A DNA stretch of 64,000 nt from Lachnospiraceae bacterium (lineage in GTDB: Bacteria; Bacillota; Clostridia; Lachnospirales; Lachnospiraceae): assembly GCA_017416465.1 (NCBI GenBank), contig JAFQCK010000025.1, positions 21,415 through 85,414 on the forward strand. The letters run 5' to 3'. A program made the position numbers and the translations under genes. Positions 6,975 through 43,936 of the stretch are shown here, piece by piece; positions within the stretch are counted from its first letter, which is position 1; the number at the start of each line of letters is the position of its first letter. The notes below the pieces were generated by a model. The model did not search any database and was not told the DNA's origin. It worked only from the letters and a program-made list of their open reading frames with translations.

Positions 6975-7301
6975 CTATTTAAACAATGTCCTCATACCAT
7001 TATTAAAAACCATTCCTTTTGAAGGAACTTGCTTTGCAACCAAAATGATATTAAAAATATCTACACAGGCGCCACCTGCATTTACTATACATAACACCAA
7101 CAAATACCAATGATAAAAACCAAAAATCTTGAAAATTAAAGGGAGAACAAATGATAAAATAATTAGTGGCATAACAGACACTACAATAAACCTTGATTTT
7201 TTAATCTTTTCTTCTGAAAATACAAATCCAAAATATCCATTCAGCCCCCAAAATACTTTTTCAGAATGTATTGCATTTGGTATACTTTTTATATACTTCA
7301 A
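6975..7301 (-). CDS. Short membrane protein resembling the C-terminal half of DUF3267 putative zincins
   Basis: The protein has 108 residues with two hydrophobic helices (about 38-62 and 64-90) and then a GGACVDIFNIILVAKQVP segment. This resembles the end of DUF3267 membrane metalloprotease-like proteins (small-residue-rich turn, Asp in a helix). The N-terminal half of that family, which carries an HExxH zinc motif, is absent. In frame upstream of this ATG there is an immediate TAA stop. The ATG has a GGAG 9 bases ahead. It is either a truncated relic or a short variant; the family call is tentative. Confidence 0.5.
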   Translation of the reverse strand: MKYIKSIPNAIHSEKVFWGLNGYFGFVFSEEKIKKSRFIVVSVMPLIILSFVLPLIFKIFGFYHWYLLVLCIVNAGGACVDIFNIILVAKQVPSKGMVFNNGMRTLFK

Positions 7302-7393
7302 TAATTTATGTCTCCAAATTTAATATATATTTATTACAGATGAGTAAAATTATATCATATATTTTTTGAAATTATATAACTTATTTTTTGTCA

Positions 7394-7452
7394 TAAAAAA
7401 AATCCTCTAATACGGACCGGTTCATTTTTACCTAATCTGTATCAGAGGTTTT
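7394..7452 (-). terminator. Intrinsic terminator of the SCP2-domain gene
   Basis: On the minus strand AAACCTCTGATACAGA pairs with a nearly complementary arm ending AGAGGATTT, followed by a T-run. It lies 9 bases after the stop at 7461. Confidence 0.7.
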
Positions 7453-7460
7453 ATTTAGTA

Positions 7461-7796
7461 TTATTTCTTTTTATTGCCCTTAAGCATATCCTTTAATCTT
7501 AAAGCCTTTCCAATATCTCCTTCTAATTTAAGCTTTTTAACTGTAAATGCCAATACCGGGTCAAGCTTACCTTCCATAATTTTTATTAATGTATCTGCTG
7601 TACAAAAATAAATTACATCTCTGTCATAGTATTCGTATGGTTCAATAAATAACTGTCCATCTTTTACTTCAACATAAAATATGCCTTCGCCCTCTCCTTC
7701 AATATTAAATTGGTATGCTAAATGTTCTGTAATACTACTCACGTCTGCATCCTTGAATTTTTCTTTGATTGTACTAAAAATTTCTTCGTAAGTCAT
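7461..7796 (-). CDS. SCP2 sterol-binding-domain protein
   Basis: The protein has 111 residues and is essentially a single SCP2 domain: an amphipathic N-terminal helix, a central beta sheet (AYQFNIEGEGEGIFYVEV), a strand pair, the TADTLIKIMEGKLDP helix, and the FTVKKLKLEGDIGKALRLKDML end. The fold makes a hydrophobic tunnel that binds lipids or acyl-CoA. In bacteria it often stands alone with unknown ligand. A perfect AAGGAGG precedes the ATG. It is monocistronic, with its own terminator. Confidence 0.8.
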   Translation of the reverse strand: MTYEEIFSTIKEKFKDADVSSITEHLAYQFNIEGEGEGIFYVEVKDGQLFIEPYEYYDRDVIYFCTADTLIKIMEGKLDPVLAFTVKKLKLEGDIGKALRLKDMLKGNKKK

Positions 7797-32042: not shown

Positions 32043-32669
32043 TTATTTATTTTTAATCGGTCCTACATTTTTAAATTTATAATTTCCGATTTCAAATTTC
32101 TTTTCTGTAATCTTATCAACTAACTCCTTGATTTCCATATATTCATCATTAATTAAAACAAAATACTGTTTATCATTCTTGTTTACAAGATAAAATACAT
32201 TATTAATATTATTTATTGATTTTGCTATATCTGCTCCACTGTCAAAAACTCCTATATTAGGAAGCATTGCTGTAAACCATGTTATAGCTTCATCAACAAT
32301 TCTCTCACCTTTAGTTAATTTTTCTTCTGCTTGTAAATTACATATTTCTGCACCTTCGAATTCTTCAAATATAATTTTATTTTTAATTGAATACTTATTA
32401 AAAGCTGTAAGTTTCTTATCTGTATATGCTGATAAATCAATAGGTTTTCTTATAGTTGTAAAATCAAGTTTACTTCCATCATCTAATAAGTAATCAATAC
32501 TTATATTTAATAACTGCGATATAGCTTTAATATTACTGATATCAGGCATTCCTTTATCTGTTTCCCATTTTGTAATTGCTGAACGCGAAACTCCTAATTT
32601 GTTTGCAAGTTCCTCCTGTGAATATCCTGCACCTTTTCTTGCTTCTTTTAATTTTTCTCCAAATGTCAT
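32043..32669 (-). CDS. XRE-family regulator with C-terminal sensory-like domain
   Basis: The protein has 208 residues. The N-terminal HTH is canonical (FGEKLKEARKGAGYSQEELA, SRSAITKWETDKGMPDI, SIDYLLDD). The C-terminal ~135 residues form an alpha/beta domain of no known family (INNVFYLVNKNDKQYFVLIN). It lies just upstream of the ABC/adaptor operon on the same strand, 74 bases from it, and may control it or be its first gene. AAAGGATG precedes the ATG. Confidence 0.8.
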   Translation of the reverse strand: MTFGEKLKEARKGAGYSQEELANKLGVSRSAITKWETDKGMPDISNIKAISQLLNISIDYLLDDGSKLDFTTIRKPIDLSAYTDKKLTAFNKYSIKNKIIFEEFEGAEICNLQAEEKLTKGERIVDEAITWFTAMLPNIGVFDSGADIAKSINNINNVFYLVNKNDKQYFVLINDEYMEIKELVDKITEKKFEIGNYKFKNVGPIKNK

Positions 32670-33637: not shown

Positions 33638-34786
33638 ATGAAAACTATTGAAGGAATCTATACCAGTGCAAATATTTTCGCAACTTCAAATGAATTAACA
33701 GCAATCGATAATTATGCAATCGCTCAGATACAAATGCTTTGCAACAATGAAGCTTTAAAAGACTGCCTGATTCGTGTTATGCCTGACGTTCATCCGGGCA
33801 TTGTAGGAACAATTGGACTTACTATGACAATTGGTAAAAAATTAATGCCTAATCTTATAGGCATCGATATCGGCTGTGGAATGACTTTATCAAAATTAAA
33901 ATGTAAAAAAATTGAATTTCAAAAGCTTGATGCTGTAATCAGAGAAAATGTTCCATCCGGATTTTCAATCAGAAATAAAATTCATCACCTTGCTAATGAG
34001 TTTGATTTCACAAGACTTAAATGCTACAAACACATTCGTGAAGAAAAAGCATTGCTTAGTCTTGGGACTTTGGGTGGTGGAAATCATTTTATAGAAGCAG
34101 ATAAAGATGAAGAAGGATATCTCTACGTTGTTATTCACAGTGGCAGCCGTAACCTCGGCAAAGAAGTTACTGAATATTATTTAAATGAAGGTCAAAAAGA
34201 ATTAAAAGACAAAGATATAAATATTCCTTATGAACTTACCTATCTTGAAGGTGAAATTTTAAAGGATTATTTACACGATATTCAAGTTTCTCAGGAATTT
34301 GCATCACTTAACAGAGAAATCATTCTTGCTGAATTAGTAAAAGGAATGAAATGGAAAGTAATTGAGAGCTATAAGTGTATCCATAACTATATAGACAATT
34401 CTAAAGAAACAATTGCTGCTTTCCATTCACCAATACTTAGAAAAGGTGCAATTTCTGCAAAGCTTAATGAAAAAGTTATTATTCCAATTAATATGCGTGA
34501 TGGAATAATTCTTGGCACAGGTTTGGGAAATACCAACTGGAACTGTTCTGCACCACATGGTTCAGGCAGACTTATGAAACGCGAAGATATTAAATCGAAC
34601 TACACAGTGTCTGCTTACAAATCAGAAATGAAAGGAATCTATTCATCTTGCATTAACAAGTATACTTTAGATGAAGCACCTTTTGCTTACAGACGAATAG
34701 ATGAAATTGTATCTGCGATTAAGGATACTGTAATTATTGATAACATTATTAAACCGATTTATAACTATAAAGCCGGTGGAAATTAA
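33638..34786 (+). CDS. rtcB: RtcB-family RNA ligase
   Basis: The protein has 382 residues. RtcB joins RNA 3'-phosphate or 2',3'-cyclic-phosphate ends to 5'-OH ends, using GTP and Mn2+. The metal and guanylate motifs are present: PDVHPG, IGIDIGCGM (metal Cys), GTLGGGNHFIE, HSGSRNLG, FHSPILRKGA and SAPHGSGRLM with the histidine that carries GMP. It resembles the shorter bacterial RtcB group that travels with PrfH. It is the first gene of a tight four-gene operon (gaps of 30, 19 and 28 bases) ending in prfH. AAAGGA lies 11 bases before the ATG. No RtcR-type sigma-54 activator is nearby. Confidence 0.93.
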   Translation: MKTIEGIYTSANIFATSNELTAIDNYAIAQIQMLCNNEALKDCLIRVMPDVHPGIVGTIGLTMTIGKKLMPNLIGIDIGCGMTLSKLKCKKIEFQKLDAVIRENVPSGFSIRNKIHHLANEFDFTRLKCYKHIREEKALLSLGTLGGGNHFIEADKDEEGYLYVVIHSGSRNLGKEVTEYYLNEGQKELKDKDINIPYELTYLEGEILKDYLHDIQVSQEFASLNREIILAELVKGMKWKVIESYKCIHNYIDNSKETIAAFHSPILRKGAISAKLNEKVIIPINMRDGIILGTGLGNTNWNCSAPHGSGRLMKREDIKSNYTVSAYKSEMKGIYSSCINKYTLDEAPFAYRRIDEIVSAIKDTVIIDNIIKPIYNYKAGGN

Positions 34787-34816
34787 TAGTAATATATTTT
34801 ACGAAAGGATTATTTT

Positions 34817-35878
34817 ATGAATTTACCAATTACAATAAATCAAAATGAATTATTAGATATTTTATTAAATATTGCAATGGTAAGACCTGTATTTATCTGG
34901 GGCGCACCCGGAATTGGAAAATCTGCATTAGTTGAAACATTTGCAAATGATATTGGTCTTCCATGCGTATCACTTCTTGGCAGTCAGCTTGCACCGGAAG
35001 ATATCATCGGTATTCCACAGATTAAAGATGATGTATCCGTATTTCTTCCACCTAAAATGATTGCCAGAAAAGAACCTTATGTATTATTTCTTGATGAATT
35101 AAATGCCTGTTCGCAGGAGGTTCAAAAAGCATTCTACAGTTTAATTCACGAAAGAAGAATCGGTGAATATCATCTTCCTGAAGGAAGTATTATCATTGGT
35201 GCAGGTAATCGCGCCTGCGACAGTGCAATTGTAAAAACAATGTCTTCTGCCTTAATCAACAGAATGTTTCATGTTGAGTTAAAAGCAGATTCAAGACAGT
35301 GGATTAAATGGGCAGAAGAAAACAATTTACATCCATGGGTTATCGATTACATAATCAATCGACCTGACCATTTATTTGCTGAAGCACCAAAAACTGAAGA
35401 ACCTTTTTCAACTCCCCGTTCGTGGCATATGCTTAGTGACTCATTAAAAGAATTTAATGCCGGAACAAAAGAAATAGATACTAACATTTTAAAAACACTT
35501 TGTTATGCCTGCTTAACTCCATCACACGCAGGAATGTTTATGGCATATACAAAAAACATAAAAAATAAGGATATGCTTGAAAAAATAATATCCAAAGAAG
35601 CTAAATGGCCGGATGCTCCAAAAGACAGAGATATATTATATTTTCTTGCTCAATCTTTTCGTGCCAGACTTATACAGGATTTACCAAAAAATAAACAGGA
35701 TATAAGCGGAAGTATGCTTACATTCGTATATCGTGCAAAAGCAATGATAAAAGAACTTTCTTCTATTAACTTTGAACTTGCACAGATGACCGTAGGAAGT
35801 GATAATACCGAAGCCTTGCCGGATTGGTTTATGGTTGAGATTATCAGAGACCTTCCAAGACTTGTTGAACAAAAATAA
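34817..35878 (+). CDS. MoxR-type AAA+ ATPase of the RtcB-PrfH operon
   Basis: The protein has 353 residues. Walker A is GAPGIGKS (29-36), Walker B is VLFLDELNACSQEVQKAF (about 91-108), and sensor 1 is IIGAGNRACD. MoxR-type ATPases act as chaperones or metal-insertion and remodelling factors and nearly always partner with a VWA protein, which is the next gene. It lies 30 bases after rtcB and 19 before the VWA gene. Here it is probably the energy-using half of a MoxR-VWA pair serving RNA or ribosome repair; that role is inferred from the neighbours. Confidence 0.9.
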   Translation: MNLPITINQNELLDILLNIAMVRPVFIWGAPGIGKSALVETFANDIGLPCVSLLGSQLAPEDIIGIPQIKDDVSVFLPPKMIARKEPYVLFLDELNACSQEVQKAFYSLIHERRIGEYHLPEGSIIIGAGNRACDSAIVKTMSSALINRMFHVELKADSRQWIKWAEENNLHPWVIDYIINRPDHLFAEAPKTEEPFSTPRSWHMLSDSLKEFNAGTKEIDTNILKTLCYACLTPSHAGMFMAYTKNIKNKDMLEKIISKEAKWPDAPKDRDILYFLAQSFRARLIQDLPKNKQDISGSMLTFVYRAKAMIKELSSINFELAQMTVGSDNTEALPDWFMVEIIRDLPRLVEQK

Positions 35879-35897
35879 AGGAGAGTGAATTATATAA

Positions 35898-37781
35898 ATG
35901 CCTAGATTAGAAGATAAATATTATTGGCGTGCAGATGATATTCCGCAAAAGCTACAACCTTTTTATCAAGGCTACAGTAAAGTCTCAGGACACAAGCTAT
36001 TAGGCGAACTAAGTGGAACAGTGTATATGAAATCTAATCGTGAATACGGACATTACGGCATAGCTACTGTAGATAAATATGGCAAAATTCATGTGAATCC
36101 GTATATTCAAATAACATCAGATGAGTGGGCATATGTCCTTGCACATTGCCTTCTACATCTCGCCTTCGGACATTTTGATGATGCTAAAATTCCAAAAGAT
36201 GATTTTAACAATTTTAACTCTGAACTTTGGAACAAAGCCTGTGATATTTATATTACACGCTTTTTATATGACATAGATTTTGGAACACCTTTAACAGATG
36301 ACCCAGCTGATTTTTATTCTATAAAGTTAAATGATGAAGCAAAAATATATGAACATCTTGTATATTTAAACGAAAATGTTTCAGACAACAGTGTTTTGAA
36401 TAAGAGTGATTTAAATAAAAAAAGTTCATACAGTATCTACGGAACTAACGGAGACCAGAAAGATATGCTTGGACTTGACAAACCCATTGTATATAAAAAT
36501 GGCGAACATAATCAATTTATAGAAGATTTTTCTCTAGCGATTAACCGTTCTGTATCAAACGCAGTTCACTTTGCTGGAGGATATGATAACTTCAAAGAAG
36601 ATTCTGTTATAAAAAAGGCTTCTAACTGGTTTCTTACACATTATCCCCTACTCGGTGGCCTTGCATCTTCATTTAAAATTATTGAAAATCCTGATATGTG
36701 TTACAAATATGAAATACACATCGCAGCCGTTGATATTTCTGCGGGTGAAATTTATGTAAATACTTCTGCAAATTTAACAGAAGAAGAATGGAAATTTGTT
36801 CTTGCACACGAATATCTTCATGCAGGATTAAGCCATCATAAACGCTGTCTTGGACGTAATAAATATTTATGGAATGTAGCATGTGACTATGTAATCAATG
36901 ATTGGCTAATCGAAATGCAAATCGGAAAAATGCCTGAAGAAGGACTTCTGTTTGATAAAGATTTACATGGTTACTCTGCCGAAGCAATCTATGACATTAT
37001 CATTAAAGAGATGAGAAAATCCAAAAAACATGCCACATTTCGCGGATTTGGTCATGGTGACATTATGACTGATAATGTTAAGGGTTTTGCTTCAAATATT
37101 CACGCCAAAGGAATAACCTTAGATGAATTTTTTAAAAATGCTTTAAAAGAAGGCTTGGATTTCCATAATTCAAATAATCGTGGATATCTTCCTGCTGGAT
37201 TAATTGAAGAAATCAAAGCTTTATCTACTCCACCTATACCTTGGGAAGTGGAGCTTGGAAATTGGTTTGACATAAATTTTCCACCTCTTGAAAAACACAG
37301 AACTTACGCAAGACCGAGCAGAAGACAAGGCGCAACCCCTGATATCCCAAGACCTCGTTATGTTCTGATGGAAGAAGATAAATTAAGCAGAACATTTGGT
37401 GTAGTAATTGACACCTCGGGCTCTATGTCAACAAAGCAAATAGGCTTAGCACTTGGCGCAATCGCAAGTTATGCTGTTTCGAAAGATGTTCCTTTAGTTC
37501 GTGTAGTATTTTGTGATGCAGACGCTTATGATGCCGGTTATATGACCCCTTATGATGTTGCCGGAAAAGTAAAGATTATCGGACGTGGTGGAACTATACT
37601 TCAACCTGCGATTACATTATTAGAAAAAGCAAAAGATTTTCCAAAAGATGGACCTATACTTATAATAACTGACGGATATATTGAAAACAGAATTTCAATT
37701 CATATAGAACATGCATATCTTTTACCTAAAGGAAACAAATTACCATTTAATCCTAAAGGTAAAGTATTCTATTTTAAATAA
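35898..37781 (+). CDS. VWA protein with duplicated DUF2201-type metallopeptidase domains
   Basis: The protein has 627 residues. Two related peptidase-like domains come first. In the first, AYVLAHCLLHLAFGHFDD has HxxxH but Cys where the catalytic Glu belongs. In the second (~310-340), FVLAHEYLHAGLSHH has a full HExxH zincin site. A VWA-like domain follows (~495-627), with the metal site DTSGSMS and a later TDGYIE. The family is the usual partner of MoxR ATPases. The protein probably docks to the ATPase encoded upstream and may cleave or remodel a target. The copy difference suggests one working and one structural domain. Confidence 0.88.
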   Translation: MPRLEDKYYWRADDIPQKLQPFYQGYSKVSGHKLLGELSGTVYMKSNREYGHYGIATVDKYGKIHVNPYIQITSDEWAYVLAHCLLHLAFGHFDDAKIPKDDFNNFNSELWNKACDIYITRFLYDIDFGTPLTDDPADFYSIKLNDEAKIYEHLVYLNENVSDNSVLNKSDLNKKSSYSIYGTNGDQKDMLGLDKPIVYKNGEHNQFIEDFSLAINRSVSNAVHFAGGYDNFKEDSVIKKASNWFLTHYPLLGGLASSFKIIENPDMCYKYEIHIAAVDISAGEIYVNTSANLTEEEWKFVLAHEYLHAGLSHHKRCLGRNKYLWNVACDYVINDWLIEMQIGKMPEEGLLFDKDLHGYSAEAIYDIIIKEMRKSKKHATFRGFGHGDIMTDNVKGFASNIHAKGITLDEFFKNALKEGLDFHNSNNRGYLPAGLIEEIKALSTPPIPWEVELGNWFDINFPPLEKHRTYARPSRRQGATPDIPRPRYVLMEEDKLSRTFGVVIDTSGSMSTKQIGLALGAIASYAVSKDVPLVRVVFCDADAYDAGYMTPYDVAGKVKIIGRGGTILQPAITLLEKAKDFPKDGPILIITDGYIENRISIHIEHAYLLPKGNKLPFNPKGKVFYFK

Positions 37782-37809
37782 TAATATAAATTGAGGTGAT
37801 TATTAAATT

Positions 37810-38418
37810 ATGATTATTCAGATAAGCTCAGGTCAAGGACCAGTAGAGTGCGAATTAGCAGTAAAAAAATTGTTAACATCTCTTATGGATGAATTTTCAG
37901 ATATCGAAATATTATCTAAACATGCCTCAAAAACAATGGGCTATTATACTTCTGTACTTTTTGAAACAAAGAACGATTTATCTTTCTTAGAAGGCAGTAT
38001 ACAGTGGATATGTGAAAGTCCATTAAGAAACGGACATAAAAGAAAAAACTGGTTCGTTGATGTAAGTATAATACCCGAAGTTAAAAATATCTGTAATGAA
38101 CATGATATCTGCCTGAAACAAGATGTTCGTATGGAACGTTTCCACTCAGGTGGCAAAGGTGGACAAAATGTAAATAAAGTTGAAACCGGCGTCAGACTTA
38201 TACATATTCCAACAGGCATCACAGTTACTTCAACTGCTGAGAGAAGCCAGTTACTTAACCGTAAAAATGCTTTAAATAAATTAAATATTATTCTAGAGGA
38301 ACATTCAAAAAATGCTAAACAGAAACAGATTAATTCTGCTTGGAGGGAGCATACTAAAATTGTACGTGGTAATCCTGTTAGGGTGTATAAGGGGATGAGT
38401 TTTAGGTTGGTGAAATAA
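37810..38418 (+). CDS. prfH: Peptide chain release factor homologue PrfH
   Basis: The protein has 202 residues, much shorter than RF1/RF2. It keeps the GGQ loop ([21 protein letters not shown] at 117-119) and the basic C-terminal helix, but lacks the long N-terminal helical domain and the standard codon-reading motifs. PrfH is known to occur beside RtcB, and such pairs rescue ribosomes damaged in the decoding centre: PrfH frees the stalled peptide and RtcB reseals the rRNA. The gene is last in the operon, followed by a strong terminator at 38477. Confidence 0.92.
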
Positions 38419-38597: not shown

Positions 38598-39245
38598 TTA
38601 TTTTTCAAAATAAGTTCTTAACTCATCAGACAATTCATTATATAATTCTCCTAATAAGCCTTTTTTTATCTCATAAATACACTCAACATATTTCTCTTCT
38701 TTAATTTGCTTTTTAAATATAAAAATAATCGTATATTTTTCACTTATAAATTCATCAATAGTTCTTGGAATTAAAGTTACCGGAAACGACGTATCTTTAA
38801 TATTTTTAAATCCTAATGTGGCAATATTTCCATAACCATATGTAAAATCAACATACTGTGATATCTTATCTTTCAAACCAACTTTCATATATTTAGCATC
38901 TTTTAGTTTAAGAATATCTGCACAACACGAACTTTTTTCATTAACAGTACTACGGCTATGATTTCTTGAAGGCGAACAATCTTGTATAGTTATTCCATCT
39001 CCCTTGCCTTCATTATACCTTTTACATCTATTATAAAATTCATTTGCATTCAAAGTTTTACTATCAATCCCGAATAAGTGCATAAAATTTTTCTTTTCAA
39101 AACGACATTGAAACCAAAAATATTCAGAGCTTCTATTTTTAGCAACAAGCAAAAAAGAATTTTCAACTAATTTAGAATATTCAAACGCAGCTTTATATAT
39201 ATGCTTTAATAATTCCTTATCATTTAGCCTTTTATTTATAATCAT
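38598..39245 (-). CDS. Nuclease-like protein resembling PBECR4, downstream of a structured RNA
   Basis: The protein has 215 residues, soluble. The segment FEKKNFMHLFGID resembles the start of the PBECR4-type domain (phage-associated relatives of barnase, EndoU and RelE-like RNases). This is my best guess and not certain. A basic and Ser-rich middle (PSRNHSRSTVNEKSS) and a Lys-rich second half follow. The gene begins 23 bases after an intrinsic terminator that ends a ~210-nt structured transcript with its own promoter. That order (promoter, RNA, terminator, RNase-like gene) is the plan of type III toxin-antitoxin loci. It also fits an attenuated leader. Confidence 0.6.
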   Translation of the reverse strand: MIINKRLNDKELLKHIYKAAFEYSKLVENSFLLVAKNRSSEYFWFQCRFEKKNFMHLFGIDSKTLNANEFYNRCKRYNEGKGDGITIQDCSPSRNHSRSTVNEKSSCCADILKLKDAKYMKVGLKDKISQYVDFTYGYGNIATLGFKNIKDTSFPVTLIPRTIDEFISEKYTIIFIFKKQIKEEKYVECIYEIKKGLLGELYNELSDELRTYFEK

Positions 39246-39646: not shown

Positions 39647-40984
39647 TTACCATCCCATCTCATGTGCCACATATTCCTTCAACCTAAATATTATATACAG
39701 AGGAATACTCCACACATGTGTCTCTCCATCCATATTATCCCCTACATTTTTTAGTGACGTTTTGATTGCCATCTTTGGGTTATATCTGTTACAAAACATA
39801 TGCAAACTTTTAGCCTTAGTATTATCCGCCGATTTTACTTCTATCGGAAGAAGTATTCCTTCATAATCTGAAATAAAATCTACTTCCGCATCTGTTTTTG
39901 TTCTCCAAAAATAGCTTTCAACCCCCATACATTTTAACTGTGTCATAATATAATTTTCTGTTAATGCTCCCTTAAAATGAATATAAGCAGTATCACCATC
40001 TAAAATTGTTCTATAATTCACATTTGATTTTCTTCTAAGAAGTCCTACATCAGACATATACACCTTAAAATAAGTATTATCCGCCATTCCCGAAAGTGGA
40101 AGTTCAGGATTTGATACCAAATTCAACTTATATGCAATCCCCGCATTAACAAGCCATTCTAACGCATCTTCCAAATCCTTTGAACGCGCCCCTTTCTTTA
40201 CGTGAGAAAATATAAATTTATTATTATCTCTAGCTATCTGTAAAGGAATTGCATCCCAAATCAATCTAACCTTTGTTGCAGTATCTGTTGTTGTATGCTT
40301 GCCAAAGTCATCCGCATAGTCCTTAAGAATTCTATCTTGAACTTCTTCCACTTCCTTATAATCATGCGTATCTACCCATGTCTGCACCGCTTCCGGCATA
40401 CCACCAACAATATAATAATTTTTCAAATACTTTTCTAAAGGAATTGTATATGTTTCCGAAAGCTCTCTTTCAAACGCAAATTTATTAATTCCATTAATAA
40501 ATTTTTCTCCTCCGTCAGCAATTACAAATTCTTCAAAACTCATTGGATACATTTCAATTCTGTCTACTTTACCTACCGGAAATGAAATACCTTCTTTTCT
40601 AAGAGCTACGCCAAGCAAGGAACCTGCTGCAATAATATGAAGCTCCGGCATATTTTCACAAAAATATTTAAGAGATTGTATCGCACGCGGACAATCTTGA
40701 ATCTCATCGAAAACAACTAATGTCTTCCCATTAACAATTTTTTTTCCATAAACAACATTAGCTAGTTCATCAATAATTCTCTCGACATCAAAATCATAAT
40801 CAAAAACAGACTTTAATCCTGTATTCCCATCAAAATTGAAATATGCAACATCTTCAAATTCTTTTTTTCCAAATTCTTTAATAAGATATGTTTTACCACA
40901 CTGACGAACCCCTGTAATCAGTAACGGTTTTCTGTTCTTTTTATCTTTCCACTTCAATAATTTACTTAGCGTTTTTCTTTCCAT
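39647..40984 (-). CDS. AAA ATPase with C-terminal DUF4143 domain
   Basis: The protein has 445 residues. Walker A is GVRQCGKTYLI (residues ~20-30), Walker B is TLVVFDEIQDCPRAI, and sensor 1 is HIIAAGSLLG. The C-terminal DUF4143 part has the nuclease-like core (FWRTKTDAEVDFIS with the Asp, then LPIEVKSAD with E-x-K), related to the PD-(D/E)XK fold. The family is widespread as a solitary gene; its role is not settled. AGAGG precedes the ATG. Three 32-bp direct repeats lie 85-180 bases upstream. Confidence 0.88.
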   Translation of the reverse strand: MERKTLSKLLKWKDKKNRKPLLITGVRQCGKTYLIKEFGKKEFEDVAYFNFDGNTGLKSVFDYDFDVERIIDELANVVYGKKIVNGKTLVVFDEIQDCPRAIQSLKYFCENMPELHIIAAGSLLGVALRKEGISFPVGKVDRIEMYPMSFEEFVIADGGEKFINGINKFAFERELSETYTIPLEKYLKNYYIVGGMPEAVQTWVDTHDYKEVEEVQDRILKDYADDFGKHTTTDTATKVRLIWDAIPLQIARDNNKFIFSHVKKGARSKDLEDALEWLVNAGIAYKLNLVSNPELPLSGMADNTYFKVYMSDVGLLRRKSNVNYRTILDGDTAYIHFKGALTENYIMTQLKCMGVESYFWRTKTDAEVDFISDYEGILLPIEVKSADNTKAKSLHMFCNRYNPKMAIKTSLKNVGDNMDGETHVWSIPLYIIFRLKEYVAHEMGW

Positions 40985-41069
40985 ATATAACCTCTTTTCA
41001 CGACACTTTATAGAGTTCTTTTAAAAAAATACTTTTAACTAAGTTTAACATATTTATACCTAAAAGTCT

Positions 41070-41165
41070 ATTTTGTTTGCGTTTTTGGCACGAATAATTG
41101 TATTTAGTCTGCGTTTTTTGGACGAATAAATGTATTTTATCTGCATTTTCGGCACGAATAATTGT
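41070..41165. repeat. Three tandem 32-bp direct repeats upstream of the DUF4143 gene
   Basis: Units are 41070-41101, 41102-41133 and 41134-41165. They share ATTT, then GC(G/A)TTTT, then GG-ACGAATAA-TGT; in the minus direction each reads ACA-TTATTCGT-CC. The exact 32-bp period and position suggest operator or protein-binding sites rather than chance. Confidence 0.75.
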
Positions 41166-41180
41166 CATCTAATATAAGTT

Positions 41181-41420
41181 CTAATATAAGTTTTCTATTA
41201 TCCTCCCCTTTTCTTCATCACCATTTATTAACTTACTGATTGTTTTTAGAACACTATTTTCAGCCTTAACATCTTCATTTACACATTCCTGTATATCTCT
41301 ATAAAAGAAAACTTCACGTATAATTTCTTTTAACAATTGCTCAAATAATTAACATTCCACCTTTCTCTCTGCGTTACTCTTTATTTCTTCTCCCATAAAA
41401 GGTGGTATAAAAGTTATCAT
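41181..41420 (-). pseudogene. Relic of a NERD-type nuclease gene with in-frame TAA
   Basis: AGAGG lies before ATG 41420. The frame reads MITFIPPFMGEEIKSNAERKVEC, then TAA at codon 24, then LFEQLLKEI and about 45 more residues to a TAG at 41181. The opening closely resembles NERD-domain proteins (IPPF, then KSNAERKVFEQL). It appears as a short, broken leftover; the rest of the domain is absent. Confidence 0.5.
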
Positions 41421-41535
41421 TACTAAGCCTCTTTTCTACAATATATTTAAAAAACCAATTATAAGATAATCACTTTAATCTATATTTCATAACGCAAATT
41501 ATATCACCTTTCAGAGCTAATGTGTATATAAACCA

Positions 41536-42780
41536 TCACTCCCAAACCTCTAACTCAACCTCAAACCCTTTCTTTCGCGCATACATTTCCAACCACTCCA
41601 TTACCTCTCTATCCGGTTCCTCATTATATTTAAGAGAAGCCTGAATTATTTTTCCTTCATATATTTCTACCGTCACATATGCTTCCTCTTTGCACTCTGC
41701 CTTACGTAAAAACATTATATCTGTATGATTATCTACATAATTATCCAAATAAAACATAAGACAATTATGTTGTACAATAGACTCTATAACAAATTCTTCA
41801 ATATTCTTAGGATATGCTATCCCATACTTTTCATCAGAAAATTCATTATCTTTATTCCTTTTCTCATTAGATTCAAGTAATTTAGAATTCCAATATTCTC
41901 TTTCTTTTATTAAAACATCGTAAATCCAAGTTACCTTATCCTCAGATATTTCTTCACTTAGCTTTTTTCCTAATTTCCATTCTACACATTCCTTTATATT
42001 AAAAAATCCAATATAGACATAATACTGTGACGCTATCCAAAAACTTTTCAGCTCCTTATAGTGCTTTCGAAATTTTCTAACAATATTTTCATACTCCTCA
42101 TTATCACAAAGTAATTTATTCATATAGGCACACATAGACTCGTTCCATCTTTTATCAAACAGCCACGAATATCTATTTTGAATAAATAATAACTTTTCAC
42201 GTTTTTCCTCTGTATCAATCAATTTCGTTCCACCCTCACAGTTAATTGCTCTTAACAGACGTATGCTTAACCCTGAAAATATTTCCGAAGGACTCGAACC
42301 AATCAAATTATAATCTTCTATATCCTCTAAATTCGCTGCAAACTCATCTAATCCTGCTTTGTATAATGTTTCCTTAACACTTCCAATTTGCATACAATGA
42401 TGTATCTGTTCAAACATTCTTAATGGCTTGTCAGTTCTAAATTTTAAATTCCATTCCGGAAATTCTAAAGAAAATCTATCATACAATTTTCTTACCTGTC
42501 TGTGATTATATGCGACACATTCTTCTTTTACAAAACTCGAAAATTTAATTTCCTCTTCATCTGTCCAATAATAGTCTTTTGCAAAAATAAATCTACCAAA
42601 TGAAGATGCTACCCACTCATTATATATAACTAACTCAAAATAGTTAGCTTCTTCAAAAATAATACATATATCCTGACCTTTAGTATGTTTAATTTTTTCT
42701 GCTTCATTATATATCATTTGTATATCCACATAATCCGGATACCAAGCGTTAGCTTCTGTGTTATTAAAAAGTCTAAACAT
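41536..42780 (-). CDS. PcfJ-like domain protein
   Basis: The protein has 414 residues, soluble. The last ~120 residues match the PcfJ pattern: IVQHNCLMFYLDNYVDN, then DIMFLRKAE, a YVTVEIYEGKIIQASLKYN strand pair, and the Glu-rich MEWLEMYARKKG end. PcfJ-like proteins occur on conjugative plasmids and in accessory regions; their function is not known. The first 290 residues are mostly helical and unrecognised. ATG 42780 is chosen because GGAG lies 8 bases ahead; the upstream ATG and GTG are too close to it. Confidence 0.65.
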   Translation of the reverse strand: MFRLFNNTEANAWYPDYVDIQMIYNEAEKIKHTKGQDICIIFEEANYFELVIYNEWVASSFGRFIFAKDYYWTDEEEIKFSSFVKEECVAYNHRQVRKLYDRFSLEFPEWNLKFRTDKPLRMFEQIHHCMQIGSVKETLYKAGLDEFAANLEDIEDYNLIGSSPSEIFSGLSIRLLRAINCEGGTKLIDTEEKREKLLFIQNRYSWLFDKRWNESMCAYMNKLLCDNEEYENIVRKFRKHYKELKSFWIASQYYVYIGFFNIKECVEWKLGKKLSEEISEDKVTWIYDVLIKEREYWNSKLLESNEKRNKDNEFSDEKYGIAYPKNIEEFVIESIVQHNCLMFYLDNYVDNHTDIMFLRKAECKEEAYVTVEIYEGKIIQASLKYNEEPDREVMEWLEMYARKKGFEVELEVWE

Positions 42781-42909
42781 AATCATCACTCCAAAATCAA
42801 GTTATACATTTAGTATAAATTTTACTGTGACAAATTATGTCATTCGTAATAAAAGGGTAATCTTCTAATAAAATTCGACCAATATTTTTCCATCATATTT
42901 TTGTGCATA

Positions 42910-42956
42910 AAAAAATAATGAAAAATCAATATCAATCGATTTTTCATTACTTTTTT
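42910..42956. terminator. Hairpin terminator near the Panacea-gene end
   Basis: AATGAAAAATC (42917-42927) pairs with GATTTTTCATT (42938-42948). T-rich sequence lies on both sides, so it can act in either direction. It follows the tail of the frameshifted Panacea-domain gene on the minus strand. Confidence 0.7.
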
Positions 42957-42964
42957 ATGTTGTA

Positions 42965-43174
42965 TTATAATTTAGGATTCAGTAGTCTTAATTCTTTCTC
43001 ATCTACATAAACCTTTTTATTTTTATCTATAATATGTTTTGCGTGATAATCCTTATATGCATCTATTAATAACTGTAATTTAACTTGACTTAATATATCC
43101 GACTGTCGCCTTAATTTAATTAAATCATCAAAATACTCTATCTCTAATTTATTATCTAAATGAACATAACCATC
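42965..43174 (-). pseudogene. Out-of-frame C-terminal tail of the Panacea-domain gene
   Basis: A 69-codon open frame starts right after an in-frame stop and has no start codon or ribosome site. It encodes DGYVHLDNKLEIEYFDDLIK and a further helical, charged stretch ending LLNPKL. It overlaps the end of the upstream frame (43156-43665) by 19 bases, shifted by one position. A single-base loss near 43175-43178 would explain it. Confidence 0.55.
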
Positions 43175-43665
43175 CTATCTAGCACTTTTATTATGTCAGC
43201 GTATTGTATTTCATACTCCTTTTTTCTTGAAAATGTATCCATTCTTTGTTCTTTTAATGTCTTACCTACACTCTTAGCAATCCATTCATTATCTTCATGG
43301 TCAATTTCTATTAATTCATCTATAGGTGCACACGAAAAAGCAACAAACATTTTAGTTAAGAAATTTTTTTCCTCTTCTGTCATATTCGTATAATCATCTA
43401 AATATTCTTGCGATATAATTCTCGAATAATTATTTTGAATTTCCGGAATAACTGCTCCGTTATCATAAGCATAAAAGTCTGCATCAATTAGAAGTGTACC
43501 TGTTTTTGCTAAATAAATATTCTGCGAAAGGTGCATTATTTTATTTAACCTTGCATTTCCCTCATAAAACGTTCTACCGTTTCTATTAATTAATTCTTTA
43601 GTAAAATACTTTTTTTCCTTATCTAGTGATAGAATATAATTTGCCACATAAAACTTATCCAACAT
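43156..43665 (-). CDS. Panacea (SocA/DUF4065-like) domain protein, C-terminus probably frameshifted
   Basis: The protein has 169 residues. The helices MLDKFYVANYILSL, then LNKIMHLSQNIYLAKTGTLL with DADFYAYDNGAVIPEIQNNY, match the Panacea domain (usual motif: GxxLFxDxFxAWxxGPV). Panacea proteins often act as antitoxins. The frame ends LDRMVMFI. A one-base-shifted frame continues for 69 sensible codons beyond it (42965-43174), so the original protein was about 235 residues. An upstream in-frame extension to 43725 exists, but GAGGTGG serves ATG 43665. No toxin gene is adjacent. Confidence 0.65.
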   Translation of the reverse strand: MLDKFYVANYILSLDKEKKYFTKELINRNGRTFYEGNARLNKIMHLSQNIYLAKTGTLLIDADFYAYDNGAVIPEIQNNYSRIISQEYLDDYTNMTEEEKNFLTKMFVAFSCAPIDELIEIDHEDNEWIAKSVGKTLKEQRMDTFSRKKEYEIQYADIIKVLDRMVMFI

Positions 43666-43936
43666 TTTTCCACCTCTTTTCAATAAATAAAAATTGACAA
43701 CATACTCACTTCCATCTAATAACAACTATATCAAAACGCCTTTATTTTGTCAACATATTATATGCAAATCATCATCTTTTTAATTTATTGCATTCAAACT
43801 CTTCTACTAAACTTTTTATCCCTACTATATTGTCTATCTATCTTCTCCAAAATTATTTCCACAAAATTAGTGAAAAAAACCAAATATTATGTTATTATAT
43901 TTACAGTTTGTATTTTTTTAGAAAGGACCCTTTACA

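Follow-up and report, generated by a model that had tools for sequence, protein, structure and literature searches.

An RNA ligase and the release-factor homologue PrfH are encoded together in the gene cluster described as the RtcB2-PrfH operon (PMC1586002; PMC6514570; PMC9223846), in which PrfH frees the ribosome and colicin E3-cut 16S rRNA is then repaired, RtcB being a GTP/Mn enzyme (PMC9223846). The accessory genes named in section 2.4 of PMC6514570 encode TPR, Pol-beta NTase, zinc-ribbon and charged proteins, and the main text of that paper mentions neither MoxR nor vWA. Here we describe a locus in a 64,000-nucleotide stretch of DNA (hereafter the window) from a Lachnospiraceae bacterium (GCA_017416465.1, contig JAFQCK010000025.1), in which the genes for a MoxR-like AAA+ ATPase and a VWA protein with two zincin-like domains stand between rtcB and prfH. 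Within the family this MoxR-VWA pair associates with RtcB and not with PrfH, and the four genes recur together yet form no single fixed machine.

CbbQ-CbbO and RavA-ViaA are pairs of MoxR AAA+ and VWA proteins. NorQD is a MoxR-VWA pair driving metal insertion into an enzyme encoded in the same operon (PMC13036017), and group 2.2 jumbo phages carry a MoxR and metallopeptidase-VWA pair for which a part in virion assembly has been proposed (PMC7824862). For animal RtcB, the metal sites and an invariant Cys are described as labile, with metal cycling and oxidation, and Archease and PYROXD1 are needed; that many RtcB organisms are without Archease is termed a remaining mystery (PMC13247085). Each component of the window locus is known, and the combination, the tandem zincin domains and a small companion protein look new; no RtcB-MoxR-VWA operon was found in the parts of the literature searched, and an earlier mention is possible in supplementary operon lists such as that of PMC6514570.

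Genes and domains of the window locus

Open reading frame calls place four codirectional genes at 33638-38418, with spacers of 30, 19 and 28 bases and, judged by eye, a purine run resembling a Shine-Dalgarno sequence 5' of all four starts. Both this arrangement and the gene identities, which Pfam and NCBIfam scores confirm, agree with the original prediction, an earlier reading of the same DNA.

33638..34786, plus strand: RtcB RNA ligase, 382 amino acids (aa); PF01139, 198 bits
34817..35878, plus strand: MoxR-like AAA+ ATPase, 353 aa; AAA_5, 48.9 bits; 16-row alignment
35898..37781, plus strand: VWA protein with two zincin-like domains, 627 aa; DUF2201_N, 91.7 bits
37810..38418, plus strand: PrfH release-factor homologue, 202 aa; TIGR03072, 175.2 bits
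38454..38552 (limits of the predicted fold), plus strand: long A+T-rich hairpin, likely the operon terminator; RNA fold z -7.68

The RtcB protein belongs to the RtcB RNA ligases (PF01139 cut-off 27 bits), and D77, C80, H150, H167, H249 and H307, which we take to be its metal and guanylylation residues, are invariant across all 66 aligned rows; these residues were partly matched by eye to an alignment with P. horikoshii RtcB (1uc2). Its labelling as 'release_rtcB' did not survive scoring, since the protein reached 114.8 of the 271.8 bits of the TIGR03073 cut-off and thus falls outside RtcB2; it is also under the cut-off of NF007153 (PRK09588), with 141.8 of 407. In the RtcB tree it falls on a different branch from the RtcB of Phytobacter massiliensis (L109), which is PrfH-linked; the branches of L098 and L107 are very long and placements there are unsure. 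PrfH exceeds its NCBIfam cut-off of 166.65 over residues 1-198, carries GGKGGQ at 114 and is a short form without the N-terminal domain of RF1/2, and its top PDB match is Peptide chain release factor H (9mor, E 3.2e-33). These features make it a PrfH, and rtcB and prfH lie codirectionally in one cluster as in an RtcB-PrfH operon. The window locus therefore resembles the RtcB2-PrfH operon in clustering an RNA ligase with PrfH, and differs from it in the two genes that intervene, the MoxR-VWA pair, and in an RtcB that fails the TIGR03073 cut-off.

The ATPase passes the cut-off for AAA_5 (22) and misses that for AAA_3 (PF07726; 23.3 of 27), and is therefore named MoxR-like; its motifs are GAPGIGKS at 29, LFLDELN at 90, GAGNR at 128, NRMF at 148 and TPRSW at 199, which presumably include the Walker-type motifs. 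The VWA protein (DUF2201_N cut-off 23.2) may belong with the DUF2201 metallopeptidase-VWA families PF13203 and PF09967. A zincin had been foreseen in it and is present, as two zincin-like domains rather than one: an N-terminal copy that is degenerate (H83, C84, H87, H92) and has no catalytic Glu, and a second copy with HExxHxxxxH (H304, E305, H308, H313), the two aligning by hhalign at 99.2% probability over 142 columns with 26% identity. Its C-terminal domain has a complete metal-ion-dependent adhesion site (MIDAS; D505, S507, S509, T566, D592). All 24 aligned VWA copies, one from the window and the others from 23 loci among the 28 of the genome scan described below (without L093, L094, L099, L101 and L102), have the full MIDAS and the full HExxHxxxxH. 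Fold comparison of the protein gave matches dominated by VWA domains, which hardly covered the zincin parts. With adjacent AAA+ and VWA genes, Walker-type motifs and a complete MIDAS, the two genes form a MoxR/VWA pair like NorQ-NorD, CbbQ-CbbO and RavA-ViaA, from which it differs in having two zincin-like domains in the VWA protein and an RNA ligase as operon partner.

The layout of the four genes is predicted to be that of an operon. Folding of the 143 bases 3' of PrfH gave -29.5 kcal/mol against -9.84 (sd 2.56) in 200 shuffles, consistent with the strong terminator expected there; the consensus terminator scan did not report this hairpin and returned four other sites against 2.2 expected. 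A consensus scan for promoter-like sites found 33 where 27.6 were expected and is therefore uninformative on internal promoters. PADLOC, run on the window, gave weak generic matches for MoxR and no match for RtcB, VWA or PrfH.

Recurrence of MoxR-VWA with RtcB and PrfH

Two overlapping sets were used to follow the pair: a genome-contig scan with a two-sequence VWA alignment as query, which yielded 28 loci, and a family sample of 397 evenly drawn same-family genomes. The scan loci come mostly from Lachnospiraceae and their kin, with Enterobacterales (4), an Acidobacterium, an Alphaproteobacterium, a Bacillaceae genome and a Helicobacteraceae contig. MoxR lies 5' of VWA in 27 of the 28, one only partly matched near a contig end, and L076 retains only 22 MoxR residues. 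Fourteen of the 28 have RtcB no more than about 5 kb from MoxR-VWA, counting one remnant and two loci that contig ends interrupt, and 3 have PrfH near it. In the family sample VWA occurs in 17 genomes, fragments included, spread over 17 genera, and 9 of these 17 loci have RtcB at up to about 5 kb, among them one remnant and one interrupted by a contig end. PrfH occurs in 19 of the 397 (limit 1e-30), with RtcB in the cluster at all 19 loci.

A search for conserved neighbourhoods of all four genes had been suggested; the genes do recur together in other genomes, and their order is shuffled. Five loci unite PrfH with MoxR-VWA, one of them with MoxR-VWA remnants only:

Window: RtcB-MoxR-VWA-PrfH
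G060 (L091): MoxR-VWA-RtcB-PrfH
L085: RtcB-PrfH-MoxR-VWA
L080: MoxR-VWA-PrfH, no RtcB found in its assembly
G619: RtcB, zinc-finger-like gene, MoxR-VWA remnants, PrfH

In G597 (L082) MoxR-VWA and an RtcB-PrfH pair stand on separate contigs, and Eubacterium ramulus ATCC 29099 (L084) has RtcB-MoxR-VWA. Depending on the locus, RtcB is upstream of, downstream of or divergent to MoxR-VWA, and the pair also adjoins divergent RtcBs, at 36% identity in L095 and 25% in the Alphaproteobacterium locus L098. On a VWA tree of 37 rows, a quick build with several weak forks, RtcB linkage was gained or lost at least 8 times and, in the 17 linked rows, RtcB shifted its place at least 6 times; the count over all states is 13 changes (L160 taken as divergent); the linkage count omits L094 and, their contigs being too short, L079 and L081, and treats L080 and L076, whose flanks are limited, as unlinked. 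These repeated changes indicate that the association with RtcB has been re-made, more than inherited alone. As a separate observation, L152 holds an RtcB remnant with an internal deletion (7146-7540) beside a full-length MoxR-VWA pair, and a second RtcB lies elsewhere in that genome.

Among the 17 family-sample genomes with VWA, 16 encode RtcB, 15 detected with the window protein at E 1e-30 and G664 by PF01139. In a smaller family draw PF01139 was found in 18 of 50 genomes, or 15 of 47 once three VWA genomes were removed, and the difference between VWA and VWA-less genomes is significant (16/17 vs 15/47, Fisher p 8e-6). The sole VWA genome without RtcB, G743, is 99% complete and has no PF01139 match, and its MoxR-VWA locus (L164) is an out-of-frame deletion remnant. 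Close RtcB homologues (best E <=1e-90, 40 genomes) coincide with VWA in 10 genomes against 1.7 expected (p 4e-7).

No such association was found with PrfH. VWA is present in 3 of the 19 PrfH genomes, in one of them as a remnant only, and PrfH is missing from 14 of the 17 VWA genomes at 1e-30; 3 of the 40 close-RtcB genomes hold both VWA and PrfH, where 4.25 would be expected (p 0.47), and in an ascertained set of 65 RtcB loci MoxR-VWA and PrfH gave an odds ratio of 0.39 (p 0.23). The dedicated four-part ribosome-repair machine of the original prediction is, in the form proposed, unsupported by these counts. They also bear on a related account, the chief rival to reading RtcB as the client of the pair, in which RtcB, and PrfH where present, would become able to act once the MoxR ring, by pulling on the VWA protein, has split, opened or stripped a damaged ribosome, or once the zincin has clipped a bound protein. 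We consider this remodelling of ribosomes or other RNPs (ribonucleoproteins) fairly unlikely: our data show no link of the pair to PrfH beyond that of RtcB, 16 of 19 PrfH genomes are without VWA, and the known PrfH-RtcB pathway, as introduced in PMC9223846, is described without MoxR-VWA. Midasin (6or5, E 5.2e-7) is the top PDB sequence match of the MoxR protein, ahead of AFG2 homologues, but the match is confined to about 110 residues in the general AAA+ core. Further in favour of remodelling are the five loci that unite PrfH with MoxR-VWA, the MoxR-VWA genomes where RtcB was not found, which a wider client would fit, and the citing of Rea1 as an AAA+/VWA remodeller of pre-60S ribosomes (PMC13036017).

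RtcB as a candidate client of MoxR-VWA

By analogy with NorQD, we tentatively favour, at somewhat less than even confidence, a modular RNA-repair operon in which MoxR-VWA serves RtcB, most likely by keeping the metal-dependent ligase active. RtcB would reseal RNA cut to 2',3'-cyclic phosphate and 5'-OH ends, and PrfH would free ribosomes stalled by a decoding-centre cut so that the small subunit could be resealed. RtcB would be served by an ATP-driven remodelling pair made up of the MoxR ring and the VWA/zincin protein, the MIDAS and two zincin domains most likely docking on RtcB or on substrate-bound RtcB, and the ATPase may keep RtcB metal-loaded and active, in the manner of NorQD with nitric oxide reductase. 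That the proteins act jointly, with RtcB as client and reloading or reactivation as the action, is what we infer; the NorQD precedent, the metal lability of RtcB in animals and the Archease puzzle together favour RtcB, or substrate-bound RtcB, as that client. Archease and PYROXD1, different types of protein, would then be functional analogues of MoxR-VWA in keeping RtcB metallated and active. Archease was not found in any of the 23 genomes searched (of 29, the source genome and the 28 of the scan), a result of little weight because it has no VWA-less comparison.

RtcB is used across life, and MoxR-VWA offers a concrete candidate for a further type of RtcB helper, being intact only in RtcB-bearing genomes of the family sample and repeatedly re-joining RtcB loci. 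If this is true, the clients of MoxR-VWA pairs would extend to RNA repair.

Several observations weigh against RtcB as the client. Five fetched plasmid MoxR-VWA loci, four enterobacterial ones and 8 of the 17 VWA loci of the family sample have no adjacent RtcB. No RtcB was found in the Acidobacteria genome G609 (8.7 Mb) or the Bacillaceae genome G615, where MoxR-VWA is intact, nor in G595 (MoxR-VWA-PrfH), G596 or G617, which makes 5 of the 28 scan genomes, as assembled; RtcB therefore cannot be the sole client everywhere. Separate large deletions affect 4 of the 17 family copies, as an in-frame MoxR-VWA fusion in G033, an in-frame loss within VWA in G629 and out-of-frame losses in G619 and G743; the affected loci are L164 (that of G743), L160, L163 and L165. 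RtcB persists in three of these four genomes, indicating that the pair is dispensable to it, and in G619 both RtcB and PrfH are full-length beside the MoxR-VWA remnants. The pair is therefore accessory and perhaps costly; misassembly could also account for the deletions. E. coli RtcB functions without a MoxR-VWA pair. The genome statistics, moreover, are uncorrected for phylogeny, and RtcB-bearing genomes may simply carry more accessory genes.

Loci of this kind would also be expected if MoxR-VWA were a mobile module with a client of its own that often lands by RtcB and shares no pathway with it, which we regard as unlikely. About half of the loci lack an adjacent RtcB (14 of 28, some on short contigs, besides the 8 of 17 above), plasmid copies and one-zincin phage relatives such as N4 gp24-gp25 exist, the pair is inserted among housekeeping genes in Kosakonia and Phytobacter, and deletion alleles are frequent. 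An unlinked cassette sits less well with the tight codirectional spacing in the window, with an RtcB linkage repeated in different orders, with the excess of RtcB in VWA genomes, and with the broken copy in the one VWA genome of the sample that has no RtcB.

In the four Kosakonia/Phytobacter loci (L096, L097, L099 and L101) MoxR-VWA is flanked by NUDIX and phosphate acetyltransferase genes (by Pfam on L096 only), presumably the equivalents of E. coli yfcD and pta. The Kosakonia MoxR-VWA DNA had no match in the E. coli genomes searched, and two of the four enterobacterial VWA genes (L099, L101) look broken, with split or shortened frames. A plasmid search for PrfH at 1e-30 gave no match.

Among phage records the VWA protein matched 231 of 50,697; a viral contig scan with the same protein gave no match. 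Phage N4 gp24-gp25 (L229) is a MoxR plus one-zincin VWA pair, in which gp25 aligns with VWA residues 216-579 at 27%, so that the match spans the second zincin and VWA only. The N4 pair and, by description only, that of the jumbo phages resemble the window locus in having a MoxR gene adjoining a zincin-VWA gene. The annotation of gp25 as 'HNH endonuclease' is unsupported by its match to the VWA protein. Another record, L227 (MT835968.1, 'UNVERIFIED: Bacteriophage sp.'), carries a MoxR-VWA pair near-identical to that of Fusicatenibacter L087 and is perhaps bacterial DNA.

Companion and neighbouring genes

In 8 distinct MoxR-VWA loci the neighbour of RtcB or MoxR is a gene for a small basic protein with conserved Cys/His, 58-65 aa long in the six copies measured; this gene adjoins RtcB in further loci also.

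L199 2665-2847; L083 6745-6918; L160 9811-9993; others: small zinc-finger-like gene

The six copies gave no Pfam family above cut-off; the protein may be the zinc-ribbon class mentioned in section 2.4 of PMC6514570. The gene was not found in the window or elsewhere in the source genome (G000; a 3.7-Mb assembly with 89.5% completeness and 5% contamination), and a one-copy query found it in 3 of 106 genomes. It is present in 14 of the 65 distinct RtcB loci, 7 of which are without MoxR-VWA or PrfH, 6 with MoxR-VWA and 1 with both. It was thus rarer with PrfH, at 1 of 28 PrfH loci vs 13 of 37 others (p 0.002), and enriched with MoxR-VWA (odds ratio 5.4, p 0.012), but neither trend is significant when independent pairs are compared (median p 0.25 for PrfH). 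In a more specific proposal, which we hold to be doubtful, MoxR-VWA with its tandem zincin/pseudo-zincin would be a bacterial RtcB reactivase, an ATP-driven metallo-chaperone in the role of Archease/PYROXD1, with PrfH and the 60-aa zinc-finger-like protein as alternative, largely exclusive companions giving RtcB access to damaged ribosomes.

Calcineurin-like phosphoesterases were found near MoxR-VWA by Pfam in L155 (4947-7355 and 10473-11210), L151 (5779-6384) and L160 (12985-13608), with more in L160 and L165 by tblastn. Counting by a strict motif found 5 such genes, in 3 of 38 loci, against none in 22 control loci, and missed known ones; one motif-counted gene is also present in each of the four enterobacterial loci. 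The link of these enzymes to MoxR-VWA is a lead only.

Two genes flank the operon in the window:

32043-32669, divergent, upstream of RtcB: XRE-type regulator
38598-39245, minus strand, tail-to-tail with prfH: PBECR4-domain protein of an RNase-fold family; PF18813, 61.9 bits

The second of these, with the HExxHxxxxH motif complete in every aligned VWA copy, would suit a protease directed at toxins, the second zincin cutting or extracting an RNase toxin on RNA or the ribosome while RtcB mends the RNA. We judge this very improbable, as the PBECR4 gene has no counterpart in the other fetched genome stretches (tblastn, 1e-3) and proteolysis by the VWA protein is itself a prediction from its motif.

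Further downstream, 39647-43725 of the window encodes a DUF4143/AAA_14 ATPase (PADLOC PDC-S01), a PcfJ-like protein and a Panacea (SocA-like) antitoxin, and is perhaps an accessory island adjoining the operon.

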